A stretch of 64,000 bases of DNA from Microglena sp. YARC (taxonomy: Eukaryota > Chlorophyta > Chlorophyceae > Chlamydomonadales > Chlamydomonadaceae), in assembly GCA_022414725.1 (NCBI GenBank), contig CM039465.1, positions 36,880,935 through 36,944,934 on the forward strand, written 5' to 3'. Below the pieces are notes generated by a model. It was not told where the DNA came from. It saw only the letters and a list, made by a program, of their open reading frames with translations, and searched no databases. The stretch's first letter is position 1; every line of letters begins with the position of its first letter. A program made the translations under genes and the position numbers. Positions 1,362-48,956 of the stretch are shown here, one piece after another.

Positions 1362-1532
1362 CTGTGGCTGGTTTATCATTGTTGGGCTTTGACGCTTGAG
1401 CTCAATCTCAGTGTGGAGAGAGAGCGTGGCCTGCCTCTGGATCCCCTTTTCATCTCCGGTCTGGGCAGTGGGAGTAGTGCTGACAGGGCTGCGGTACCAT
1501 TCACGGTGTGGCTTGATGTCTCCGATTAAAGC
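1362..1532 (-). CDS. Internal exon of the minus-strand kinase-like gene
   Basis: On the minus strand an acceptor (TTGCAG) precedes 171 nt, exactly 57 open codons, ending CAG before GTGGTA. It begins ALIGDIKPHREWYRSP and continues with a Thr/Gln/Ser-rich stretch. A second, diverged copy of the acceptor and first ~55 nt lies upstream at 2117-2175. Substitutions between the copies largely keep the peptide (HREWYRSP versus HRQWYHSP). The phase-0 boundaries and the conservative divergence support an exon. Its role in the protein is not recognised. Confidence 0.5.
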
Positions 1533-1541
1533 CTGCAAGGG

Positions 1542-1920
1542 GGGGGGTGGGGGTGGGTATGTGTGTGGGGTGGCTAGACTAATCTTGCCTTCAACTGCTA
1601 GGGGGTGGGTATGTGTGTGGGGTGGGTATGTGTCCGGGGTGGTGGGGGTGGGGGTGGGTATGTGTGTGGGGTGGGTATGTGTCCGGGGTGGTGGGGTGGG
1701 GGTGAGTATGTGTGTGGGGTGGATATGTGTCCGGGGTGGTGGGGGGTGGGGGTGGGGGTGGGTATGTGTGTGGGGTGGGTATGTGTCCGGGGTGGTGGGG
1801 GTGGGGTGGGTATGTGTGTGGGGTGGGTATGTGTCCGGGGTGGTGGGGGTGGGGGTGGGTATGTGTGTGGGGTGGGTATGTGTCCGGGGTGGTGGGGGTG
1901 GGGGTGGGGGTGGGGGGATC
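1542..1920. repeat. G-rich minisatellite, about 43-48 bp unit
   Basis: About seven copies of GGGTATGTGTGTGGGGTGGG followed by TATGTGTCCGGGGTGGTGGG. The plus strand is almost pure G/T with many GGGG runs. It sits in the intron of the minus-strand gene just upstream of the exon at 1362-1532. Translation on the minus strand gives a Pro/His/Thr repeat, which is an artefact. Confidence 0.85.
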
Positions 1921-2116
1921 TGTGGAGGGTGTGTCGCACATACAAGGAGCTGGCCTTGAACTGGGTGGGTGGAGAGATGGGTGGGTGAGAGAGGGAGAGT
2001 GGGGTGGGGAGGGGGGGAGGGGGGTGGGGATGGGGGGGGAGGGGCCAAAGCCTGCCAGGTGGGCAGAGGTCAGCGGTAGGATAGTGTTAGCGGGCGGGGT
2101 GGGGAGGGCAAGTGCC

Positions 2117-2175
2117 AACAGGGCTGTGGTACCATTGACGGTGCGGCTTAATGTCGCCGATTAAAGCCTGGGAGG
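2117..2175 (-). pseudogene. Partial upstream copy of exon 1362-1532 (decoy 3' splice site)
   Basis: This copy contains CCCAG acceptor sequence and the first 17-18 codons of the downstream exon (ALIGDIKPH kept). It then diverges without the rest of the exon. It lies 640 bp upstream of the full exon, as expected from duplication of an intron-exon junction. Confidence 0.55.
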
Positions 2176-2199
2176 TGGACAGAGGTCAGAGGCAGGTTA

Positions 2200-2640
2200 G
2201 TGTTAGCGAACTGGAAATGAACGTGGAAGGGTGAGGGCAAGTTCTCTGCAATGAAATAGCTTTAAAGAGCCTGAAATAAAGGTAATGGAAGGGTGAGGTC
2301 AAGTTCTCTGCACTGAAAGAGCCTGGAATAGCCTAATACCGGTATAACCTTGGTTCGAACCCCATCGAGGTCACCTGGGCCCACCCGGAGTTTCGTCGAC
2401 CGGCATGGTAACTGGACTCTAGGTGTGATGTAAGCCCATCCATCGCATACTTACGAGCCGGTTCCCTTAAGACCACGTCCTTAGAAGTGACATAGTGACA
2501 TACCTTGGAAGTTGAGATGTATTTATTTATTTACCGGTATAACCTGCAATAGCCTGAAATAAAGGTAAAGGAAGGGTGAGGGCAAGTTCTCTCCACTAAA
2601 ATAGCCTTCACTTACCTCGGACTCTAACAACACGCGAACA
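2200..2640. repeat. Short interspersed tandem unit (AAGGGTGAGGGCAAGTTCTCT)
   Basis: Three to four copies of a ~65-bp unit (GGAAGGGTGAGG, CAAGTTCTCT, then AATAGCC and TGAAATAAAGG) at about 2225, 2285 and 2565. The array is interrupted by the retroposon at 2351-2531. No coding signal was seen. Confidence 0.6.
2351..2531 (+). mobile_element. Short retroposon with (ATTT)n tail and 14-bp target-site duplication
   Basis: TACCGGTATAACCT occurs at 2337-2350 and again at 2532-2545, a perfect 14-bp target-site duplication. The 181-bp insert starts TGGTTCGAACCCC, which resembles the T-arm/box B of a tRNA, and ends in TTTATTTATT. The tail, duplication length and tRNA-like start fit a SINE truncated at its 5' end and mobilised by a LINE. 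No second copy was noticed in the window. Confidence 0.75.
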
Positions 2641-2832
2641 GGGGCCAGATCATGAGGGTCAATGAGGATATCTCGTGGTGGGGTGCAGCATGCTTTCACT
2701 TATCTCGGACTAGTGTCGTGGTGGGGTGCAGCATGCTTTCACTTACCTCGGACAAGTGTCGTGGTGGGGTGCAGCATGCTTTCACTTATCTCGGACAAGT
2801 GTCGTGGTGGGGTGCAGCATGCTTTCACTTAC
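2600..2832 (-). repeat. Array of duplicated 5' splice sites downstream of exon 2833-2944
   Basis: Reading the minus strand, TCCGAG|GTAAGTGAAAGCA recurs about every 43 bp (donors near 2833, 2790, 2747 and 2704). A longer copy near 2615-2680 repeats nearly the whole 3' half of the exon (DILIDPHDL kept). All lie downstream of the full exon and all keep GTAAGT. Confidence 0.7.
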
Positions 2833-46335: not shown

Positions 46336-46590
46336 AGATGCAAATGCAGGTGCGTTATACAATAATAATAATTATTATTATTATTATTATTATTGTTATG
46401 ATTATTATTATTATTATTAAATTAAAAACGTCTGTGTTATAAAAATGTAAATGCAGGTGTGTTATACAATAATAATAATTATGATTATTATTAATTTTTT
46501 TTTTTATTATTATTATTATTATTATTATTATTATTATTATTATTATTAAATTAAAAACGTCTGTGTTCTAAAAATGCAAATGCTGGTGTG
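46335..46590. repeat. Three-copy tandem unit with (ATT)n
   Basis: AAATGCAGGTGTGTTATACA, AATAATAATAATTATTATT and AAATTAAAAACGTCTGTGTT repeat about every 105 bp. The following 46640-46800 and 47280-47360 have AATAATCAAGATACATAGTT units. No gene. Confidence 0.85.
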
Positions 46591-46960
46591 TTAAGGCTCA
46601 GAGATATCCAACTAGCCTTAAGGGACTGGCCCAGCCTCGAATAATCACGATTCACAGTTACTAATAATTACTAATAATCAAGATACATAGTTACCAATAA
46701 TCGCTAATAATCAAGAAACATATTTAATAATAAGCGCAAATAATCAAGAAACATAGTTACTAATCATTACTAATAATCAAGATACCTATTGTTTTGTAGA
46801 CAGCAGCTGCTGGTCTCGTACAGGTATTGTACTGCTAGTCTCGTAGAGGTATTGTACTGCTAGTCTTGTTGAGGTTTTGTATTACAATTCGTTAGACATG
46901 AGAGGTAGCGCATCATTAAGAAGCAACGCAACTTAGGCGGCATAGTATGCCAGCGGGACA

Positions 46961-47176
46961 CCCCTTTCAGTGATATACATTGGTCCAGTGGTAGACCAAA
47001 TCACTTTGAGGATGAAGAGTCGGAGGTTCGATTCCCCCTCCGGTCGCTCTTGGCGTTGCAGATCGTTGTCAACCGCGATGGTAGCTTGTCCAATTGAGGT
47101 AGAAGACCGCTCCCTACCTGCGTACAACGGCTCCCTTAACACCACGCCCCACCAGGTGTTATCTTTACCTTTTTTT
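46961..47176 (+). mobile_element. tRNA-derived SINE
   Basis: 12-bp duplication GCCAGCGGGACA / GCCAGCTGGACA (46949-46960 and 47177-47188, one mismatch). Box A TGGTCCAGTGGTAGACC, box B GGTTCGATTCC, full body and 3' end as at 41250, then a T run. Confidence 0.92.
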
Positions 47177-47361
47177 GCCAGCTGGACAACCTACTGGCGT
47201 GGACTTAGTCACTAGCTGGCTGGTGGCCCCAGTCGCTAGCTGACAGGACAGAGTGTGCACGGGACCTCCAGCAGGTAACTGCGCTTGACACAGAATACAT
47301 AGTTACTAATAATCGCTAATAAACAAGAAACATTGTTATTAATAATCAAGATGCACAGTTT

Positions 47362-47725
47362 CTAGCTATATATATATATATATATATATATATATATACT
47401 GACCAATGGCTTTTTTCTGCTACCAGTAGCAACTGCTACCTGGGTTCCCGTTTTGGCCAAACTTCCGCTACCCTGAGAATCCCCCGCCCCCCAACCCCCC
47501 TGGGCTGGCCTGGCAGGGCCCCAACCTTGAAAGAAACCAAATCCCTACCAGAAGACCCCCTTCCTGAATCAGAAAAAAACTCTGCAACAGTTATGAGTGG
47601 ACCGTACATTTTTCAGATTTTACAGCGACATATTTAGGGTGCGGAAAATATATATATATGGACCAACTAGATAGATATATCATATATATATAGATATATC
47701 GGGTCTTTGCCTCACCCTATATATA
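47362..47725. repeat. (TA)n tracts
   Basis: TATATATA runs at 47367-47398 and 47650-47720 separated by C-rich sequence. A CCACCACCAGC tract follows at 47905-48065. No gene. Confidence 0.7.
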
Positions 47726-48174
47726 TTGCCTTTCTTTTTCTGTGGATTTGTTGGAAGACCCCTCACGGATGTTGTGGAGCAGGCTTGTCTCGGGCCAACA
47801 ATGGCCTGTTGACGACAATGTAGTGCATCATTAATTTAGTCAAACCGTGTCACTCTGTGTGAGGTTGCTGCTCAATTAATGCTGTTGGTAGGACCAGTCT
47901 GGAAACAGCCACCACCACCAGCCACCACCAGCCACCAGCAGCCACCACCCAGCCACCAGTCCGGAAACAGCCACCACCCACCACCACCACCCAGCCACCA
48001 CCACCACAACCACCACCGACACCCAGCCCCGACACCACCACCATCATCCCAGCCATCACCATACCACCACCCCTTCCTGGCTATAGATATATTGACCCAT
48101 GGCTATGAGTGGACCTTATACCATGGGCTACCGCTAAACCAAGCTATGCACCGCTACAAACTAACGGTACCCTG

Positions 48175-48250
48175 CTGCAATGCAAGCCTCATCTCTGGTG
48201 AAAAGAGGAGACGGAACATGTACAAATGTGAAACCCCTGGATATTCTCAG
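48175..48250 (+). CDS. Candidate exon end of the plus-strand gene before donor 48251
   Basis: An exon end AACCCCTGGATATTCTCAG precedes GTAAGG at 48251. Two frames are open. One reads ISGEKRRRNMYKCETPGYSQ. The other (phase 1 entry, as exon 44670 requires, from a possible acceptor GCAAG near 48190) reads SSLVKRGDGTCTNVKPLDIL. The acceptor and frame are therefore unresolved. Four downstream copies of this segment keep the donor. Confidence 0.4.
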
Positions 48251-48956
48251 GTAAGGCTATTACTAAAGGTATCTTGTTTTATTTGGGGCATGAGGTGGGA
48301 GTGGTTGGGTGTGGGTCGGGTGGGTGGGTGGGTGGGGTGGAGGGCAAGTGTCAATCTCAAAAAGAGGAGACGGAACATGTACAAATGTGAAACCCCTGGA
48401 TATTCTCAGGTAAGGCTATTACTAAAGGTATCTTGTTTTATTTGGGGCATGAGGTGGGAGTGGTTGGGTGTGGGTCGGGTGGGTGGGTGGGTGGGGTGGA
48501 GGGCAAGTGTCAATCTCAAAAAGAGGAGACGGAACATGTACAAATGTGAAACCCCTGGATACTCTCAGGTAAGGCTATTACTAAAGGTATCTTGTTTTAT
48601 TTGGGTGTGGGTCGGGTGGGTGGGTGGTGTGGGTCGGGTGGGTGGGTGGGGTGGAGGGCAAGTGTCAATCTAAAAAAGAGGAGACGGAACATGTACAAAT
48701 GTGAAACCCCTGGATACTCTCAGGTAAGGCTATTACTAAAGGTATCTTGTTTTATTTGGGGCATGAGGTGGAAGTGGTTGGGTGGGGGTCGGGTGGGTGG
48801 GGTGGGGGGCAAGTGCCAATCTTGAAAATAGGAGACGGAACATATACAAATGTGAAATCCCTGGATACTCTCAGGTAGAGCTATTACTTAAGATATATTG
48901 TTTTATTTGGGACATGAGGTGTGTGTGTGTGGGGGGGGGGGGGGGGGGGGGGGGGG
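48251..48956 (+). repeat. Downstream donor array, ~155-bp period
   Basis: TCTCAG|GTAAGGCTATTACTAAAG occurs with donors at 48251, 48410, 48569 and 48724, and as CAG|GTAGAG at 48874 (spacing 159, 159, 155, 150). Intron parts carry GGGTGGGTGGG runs, lengthening to about 26 G in the last copy. Confidence 0.9.

Follow-up and report, generated by a model that had tools for sequence, protein, structure and literature searches.

Introduction

Tandem copies of exon sequence within one gene are found in whole-exon duplication and in mutually exclusive exons. The copies described here differ from these in being fragments of an exon with one splice site, and whole-exon copies account for just 2 of 130.

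In Chlamydomonas and Volvox the introns harbor the densest tandem repeats, for which a link to splicing was proposed by the authors, and the repeats increase toward the intron ends (PMC3887541). The arrays reported here resemble these in being intronic tandem repeats, but their copies become rarer beside the junctions, and the passages of that study consulted here contain no repeat unit holding an exon edge together with its splice site. In the potato RdRp case, as presented in the consulted part of its report, tandem duplication over exon and intron sequence likewise gives rise to spare splice signals; however, the duplicate there is a new intron, whereas the copies found here sit within an existing one (PMC4974935). 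Introners share with our arrays a genome-wide supply of intronic sequence but are dispersed copies, whereas the present arrays are local and each is derived from its own exon edge (PMC9860276).

Results

The window, i.e., the whole analysed stretch of 64,000 nucleotides (C4:36880935-36944934 of a 568-Mb genome), holds the repeats, the splice motifs and the copy direction in its sequence. The initial annotation had described arrays of splice-junction copies at seven loci; all of these were found, their existence was confirmed by a 40-base copy test and they recur outside the window, but an eighth locus (acceptor 50328, with a copy at 50255) had been missed. The units lie head to tail and measure tens to hundreds of bases, which places them among minisatellites or tandem repeat arrays, and the spacing of junction copies has a median of 151.5 bases (5-95% range 91-296, n=104). 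A tRNA search and an Rfam search at the gathering threshold gave no match in the window.

The VWA-domain gene on the plus strand (gene A; Pfam PF25106, E=1.1e-10) is the sole gene of the window with homologue support. Exons 1 to 5 (7435-7506, 8994-9083, 9786-9935, 10415-10541 and 10898-11030, span 7435..11030) have no local copy at any of their nine internal junctions in the 40-base test, and the gene as a whole has one copied junction out of ten. This is the acceptor of the sixth and last exon (13512..13656, terminated by a stop), placed at 13512 and not at 13515 according to the models P0002 and P0003, against which the public model P0001 appears to misplace junctions. The array 5' of this exon (13051..13511) contains acceptor copies at 13077, 13222 and 13375 (offsets -435, -290 and -137), all with AG. 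The copies 3' of the exon (13657..14481) had been taken to hold a 5' splice site; in fact they repeat the end of the coding sequence with its stop codon (...ARAR-TGA) and contain no donor. A search for the VWA_4 family across the genome gave no match despite the presence of gene A, which was missed because it is split into exons.

The second predicted gene (gene B, plus strand, 35-50 kb) is a candidate, with six of nine junctions copied; it gave no Pfam, homologue or PDB match, and the homologue search covered proteins of similar length, so that a longer full gene could escape it. Candidate exon 1 (35453..35566) is an open frame preceded by AG and followed by GT, itself with no homologue. It is flanked upstream (35090..35452) by acceptor copies at 35115, 35243 and 35347 (offsets -338, -210 and -106 from acceptor 35453, all AG) and downstream (35567..36304) by copies of donor 35567 at 35765 (+198, GT), 36174 (+607, GT) and 36261 (+694, GG). 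Candidate exon 2 (39327..39428) is preceded by exon-start copies over 36756..39326. These had been described as holding the 3' splice site, but three copies of a 142-bp array (38.7-39.2 kb) read TG instead of AG; further copies, seen by eye near 37630 and 38085, do have CAG. Candidate exon 3 (44670..44778) is followed (44779..45580) by copies of donor 44779 at 44920, 45061, 45202 and 45343 (+141, +282, +423 and +564), all GT; one more degenerate copy was seen by eye near 45520-45580. Candidate exon 4 (48087..48250; start chosen by phase, a shorter stretch in the first exon model) is followed (48251..48921) by copies of donor 48251 at 48410, 48569, 48724 and 48875 (+159, +318, +473 and +624), all GT. 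The copy in front of the stop-terminated candidate last exon (50328..50438), located within 50236..50327, retains AG and matches at 30 of 40 bases, few of them exonic.

The minus strand at 0-3 kb holds two further candidate exon edges. The stretch 1478..2167 comprises an exon start (acceptor 1532) together with a copy lying upstream of it at 2167 (72%, AG), and 2600..2905 comprises an exon end (donor 2832) with copies on the downstream side. Donor 2832 has one copy 217 bases downstream (75%, GT); 43-bp copies at 2673-2839 share few exon bases and fall below 70% in the 40-base test. The claim that the array-flanked exons are used as coding exons thus stands for the VWA gene, by its homologues, but the candidates at 35-50 kb and at 0-3 kb (the latter checked by Pfam search alone) have no homologue backing. 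Exons of this kind, flanked by arrays, are genuine coding exons in conserved dynein and chaperonin genes.

Fourteen dynein-heavy-chain loci were fetched, one of which (L035) had no intron in the set. They yielded 69 introns, of which 49, carried by 12 loci, were kept; 7 introns of the degenerate locus L048 were dropped, together with 13 that had fewer than six supporting queries or were not GT-AG. At a threshold of at least 75% identity, 26 of the 49 donors had copies, all of them downstream, and 21 of the 49 acceptors had copies, all of them upstream; no dynein junction had a wrong-side copy at 0.80, 0.85 or 0.90 either. At 70% the rule was broken by an upstream copy in 2 of 29 duplicated donors and a downstream copy in 2 of 25 acceptors. 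The copies exceed what chance would produce, since in the surrogate 0.36% of positions were copied on average and 4.6% in the worst locus. All expected-side dynein copies at 70% or above lie within the junction's own intron, and the flanking exons align to outside proteins. A blastn comparison of 41 exons gave 130 copies: 73 of the exon end (all downstream), 44 of the exon start (all upstream), 11 inner and the 2 whole ones. A 46-base candidate exon of locus L047 has two whole-exon copies; the protein of this locus is 68% identical to the nearest Cymbomonas protein among the matches listed.

The same direction was found in further comparisons. In profile rows from three families all 39 edge-sharing partial copies followed it, with three more copies being inner; this count used 198 of 222 rows (81/85, 49/51 and 68/86), the omitted rows having been chosen by eye and being mostly isolated or weak. 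In a TCP-1-type chaperonin gene six junctions were read, and every one had copies on the side that the rule predicts; for one junction this was just a single copy, with its core lost. In locus L049 two of three donors had copies, all downstream; both loci were picked because copies were already visible there. The L049 acceptors that were read had no copies at their assigned sites.

Thus the directional rule and the single intact exon per locus, both proposed for the window, are supported, the latter in nearly all cases, and the one-way direction supports tandem duplication of junction-spanning segments. Such a rule is what tandem duplication leaves behind by its geometry; it is nearly forced and carries no information on function.

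One would argue that such arrays are produced by assembly stutter or by wrong gene models. There are indeed runs of N in the window (27076-28075) and in the loci L003 (5000 N) and L040 (2500 N), some copies match the true site over all 40 bases, and gene B has no homologue. However, most copies are not identical to the true site, their identity reaching as low as the 70% cut-off, copied junctions occur in 11 of the 12 intron-bearing dynein loci, and outside proteins (5 dynein relatives out of 120 listed) recover all 49 GT-AG introns exactly. An artefact is therefore very improbable.

The initial annotation regarded junctions as preferred targets of duplication. In the window, the 40-base test detected a local copy for 7 of the 19 junctions in the two predicted genes, but circular shifts gave an expectation of 7.4, and 62% of the shifts equalled or exceeded the observed value. 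Since 32% of window positions already have a local copy by the same test, this overlap is at the level of chance placement. A TRF-based test assigned 13 of the 98 dynein junctions to an array; TRF overlooks diverged arrays, and therefore the 40-base copy test was used instead. By this test, the copied fraction in the dynein genes was 0.480 for junctions compared with 0.715 for intron interior (difference -0.236, 95% CI by gene -0.319 to -0.156). The interior exceeded the junctions at all five identity thresholds from 0.70 to 0.90, the gap narrowing at 90% (0.388 and 0.456), and the intronic part of the copy profile has its minimum beside the junction and increases inward. Duplication directed to junctions by splicing or transcription, e.g., through R-loops or nascent-RNA-templated repair, would agree with a copied junction in 34 of 49 dynein introns and with the high share in gene B, but the interior excess, the chance-level overlap in the window and the intron-side minimum all speak against it, and we consider it improbable.

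The copied splice sites, or decoys, score 9.02 against 9.20 for true donors (p=0.38) and 10.38 against 11.41 for true acceptors (p=0.06), a similarity that is partly built in, as decoys were selected by likeness to the true site; the lower score of the acceptor decoys falls just short of significance. Most copies retain the splice dinucleotide: GT is present in 88.5% of the donor copies (n=61) and AG in 88.9% of the acceptor copies (n=45). Such retention and strength would be expected of functional decoys, serving as sources of protein isoforms, as decay-linked splicing switches or as U1-binding sites that suppress premature polyadenylation. However, decoy-decoy identity by distance is alike on the exon side (0.90/0.89/0.82) and the intron side (0.88/0.87/0.81; 130 non-independent pairs), the core does not stand out, and cores are lost in some copies (TG at 38.7-39.2 kb of the window; TT in 3 of 8 copies of L049). 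The decoys thus appear to diverge as if neutral. An ungapped count of core and exon side had suggested selection on decoy cores; a gapped decoy-decoy comparison disagreed, and this reading was rejected. Additionally, nearest-copy spacings are even over reading frames (9/7/8 and 7/7/6 for remainders 0/1/2), and use of the nearest decoy would break the frame in 43 of 44 cases; considering the nearest site only, the frame stays open for 0 of 24 donors and 1 of 20 acceptors. The frame test does not bear on a decay-linked or U1-binding role. Of the two outcomes envisaged for the spare sites, alternative splicing or its tolerance, the latter is the better half of the guess, as protein-yielding alternative splicing from decoys is unlikely with 1 of 44 keeping the frame. 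Taken together, a function of the decoys is rather improbable.

Discussion

Our sequence data suggest that pervasive tandem duplication probably generates the arrays as a neutral by-product, which would be tolerated since the exon-proximal sites would win. Local tandem duplication would be pervasive in the noncoding DNA of this genome and place successive junction copies at the spacing given above. A duplicate spanning a junction would keep the exon whole and put a strong spare splice site in the intron, with spare donors falling downstream of the exon and spare acceptors upstream. These spare sites would rarely be used, the exon-proximal pair being chosen by exon definition or an equivalent rule. 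With donor decoys first and acceptor decoys last in the intron, no decoy acceptor is followed by a decoy donor, so that no pseudo-exon would form; among 11 introns holding both kinds, none had them interleaved. A minority of junction-spanning duplications may have been purged by selection, which would explain the junction deficit.

Strict exon definition fits poorly with the long tail of internal exon length (median 274 bases, 75th percentile 445, 90th percentile 824), the introns having a median of 713 bases (69 introns). Array density is also uneven, with 0 of 6 junctions copied in the one remaining dynein locus and the low count of the VWA gene.

It is quite possible, if somewhat short of probable, that this organism, probably a flagellated unicellular alga, has to splice at about half of its junctions in the presence of nearly identical decoys of full strength, which bear no mark of disarming selection. 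If so, an exon-proximal or exon-defined choice rule would be needed genome-wide, and the use of the first transcribed acceptor would be excluded, because acceptor decoys are transcribed ahead of the true site. Gene predictors may misplace junctions in such genomes, as exemplified by P0001 of gene A. Splice-site choice is usually studied in built minigenes. Here, many genes would offer a natural competition of near-identical sites at graded distances, separately for donors and acceptors, and this contest could separate exon closeness, transcription order and sequence strength as the deciding factor. It would also mean that introns can expand through duplication of their own end segments, with apparently little cost.

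Results

The window (C4:36880935-36944934, in a genome of 568 Mb and 2390 contigs) holds on its + strand a six-exon VWA gene, gene A (7435..13656; PF25106, E=1.1e-10), whose exon order fits database model P0001, near-identical at 98%, as well as two models matching gene A at 58-61% (P0002 and P0003). Since P0001 carries gene A's own sequence, yet ends exon 5 earlier, it is probably a gene prediction made from the Microglena genome itself. The last acceptor lies at 13512 according to P0002 and P0003, which back the first AG of a tandem acceptor TAGGAG (13509-13515); the last intron also contains a perfect (TGA)93 tract (11067-11346). 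Gene B consists of five phase-compatible candidate exons at 35.4-50.4 kb, the start of the fourth being set by phase, and homologue searches with these exons found no homologue.

Local copies were found at 7 of the 19 junctions of genes A and B (13512, 35453, 35567, 39327, 44779, 48251 and 50328). Because 32% of the positions in the window are themselves locally copied at 75% identity or more and circular shifts give 7.4 junction hits on average, there is no excess of local copies at junctions within the window. The initial annotation had placed a 5' splice site in the copies after 13656 and a 3' splice site in the 142-bp copies before 39327; a stop codon stands in the former and TG is read in the latter. 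Local copies were also frequent elsewhere: the share of copied positions was 15% for introns of the VWA gene, 42% for those of gene B, 5-94% across parts of the window and 36-61% in four flanking stretches.

The window also contains other repeats and elements. Several ORFs at 19194-22517 (-), split over frames, are presumably Ty1/copia-type retrotransposon polyprotein-like (integrase, reverse-transcriptase-like). A 1000-base N gap (27076-28075) just precedes a 6.7-kb satellite (28118-34811), whose unit of about 81 bases is made of two related 40-base halves. By eye, about two and a half tandem copies of a unit of about 2.25 kb, containing 37-, 73- and 75-base repeats, occupy 58052-64000.

A dynein AAA_6 profile search of the genome found exons with partial copies of their own ends downstream of them; at C1:61043188, for instance, one exon is followed by seven copies of roughly its last 45 residues and preceded by a single copy of its start. 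Fourteen dynein loci of 10 kb each were fetched and read with a purpose-written spliced protein-to-DNA aligner, and 49 GT-AG introns out of 69, from 12 loci, were retained; all 49 were exactly recovered by at least one, and 48 by at least two, of five outside proteins. Locus L047 scored highest with the Cymbomonas protein among the five tried (68% identity over 860 residues). The dynein-like locus L048 (C6:17326000-17335999) aligns with low scores, has several junctions that are non-standard, and is possibly a decaying gene.

A junction was counted as copied if 40 bases, at least 10 on either side of it, recurred at a shift of 30-2000 with at least 75% identity, low complexity being excluded. 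The directional rule first noticed in the window, acceptor copies upstream and donor copies downstream, is borne out in the dynein introns: 26 of 49 donors were copied, all downstream, and 21 of 49 acceptors, all upstream. No wrong-side copy occurred in these introns at thresholds of 0.75-0.90, and at 70% identity two donors and two acceptors had one as well. Markov surrogates gave a mean copy rate of 0.36% (worst locus 4.6%). By blastn, 117 of 117 edge copies obeyed the direction, besides 11 inner and 2 whole-exon copies, as did all 39 edge-sharing profile rows of three families (3 further rows were inner). All six junctions read in a TCP-1-type chaperonin gene, a locus picked for its copies, were duplicated likewise; one had seven copies, one six, and one a single copy with its core lost.

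The two whole-exon copies, the only ones observed, flank the 46-base candidate exon L047:4560-4605 on both sides; the downstream junction of this exon departs from GT-AG and may be misplaced. P0088, a Cymbomonas tetramitiformis dynein model, has a perfect 118-residue internal tandem duplication; among 126 proteins scanned, no other internal repeat contained an exact run of at least 12. The duplication may be due to the assembly or to the same process at work in another alga.

The suggestion that junctions are preferred targets of duplication does not hold: besides the 7 junctions against 7.4 expected in the window, the dynein sample shows a deficit. Intron-interior positions were copied in 71.5% of 4946 samples and exon-interior positions in 25.6% of 1129, and the junction minus intron-interior difference was -0.236 (95% CI by gene -0.319 to -0.156). 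The deficit was smaller at 90% identity (junctions 0.388, interior 0.456). We take it as a conservative estimate, because the coding side should change slowly and so make junction copies easier to see. Introns with a copied junction had a median length of 820 bases, against 419 for those without (34 and 15 introns).

Most copies (decoys) have kept their splice-site core: at 70% identity or more the share is 88.5% for donors (61 copies, 2 of them upstream) and 88.9% for acceptors (45 copies). Between decoys, with gaps allowed, the exon side is about as similar as the intron side (130 pairs), as neutral sequence would show; between true site and decoy, identity is greater for the exon side than for the intron side (0.92/0.90/0.82 versus 0.86/0.84/0.80; 104 pairs), as expected with constraint on the true exon alone. 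Decoys score like true sites (donors p=0.38, acceptors p=0.06), although their selection by similarity qualifies this likeness. Nearest-copy spacings are even over the three frames. Splicing to the nearest decoy would leave an open frame at none of 24 donors and at 1 of 20 acceptors.

Discussion

Junction-copy arrays of this kind were not recognised among the best matches in the literature searched, which lay mostly outside subscription journals. The nearest known cases there, as far as the retrieved parts go, are tandem repeats within green-algal introns (PMC3887541) and intron gain via tandem duplication (PMC4974935).

Direction may itself make the decoys tolerable. In every one of the 11 introns with both kinds, donor decoys precede acceptor decoys; a pseudo-exon needs an acceptor and then a donor, and thus decoys in this order cannot form one by mutual pairing. 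A rule favouring the exon-flanking pair would pick the true sites; under strict first-come use the true donor would be chosen, but the acceptor would be a decoy. If the decoys are indeed unused, this speaks against strict first-come use, because acceptors have decoys nearly as often as donors do (21 versus 26 of 49). The long exons in the sample make a strict exon-definition reading less convincing. In the part of the survey consulted, PMC2397502 infers that intron definition prevails in fungi and protists; the cassette-exon share it reports for Chlamydomonas, 22%, is intermediate. Given that inference for protists, a flagellate following an exon-proximal rule would be an interesting case.
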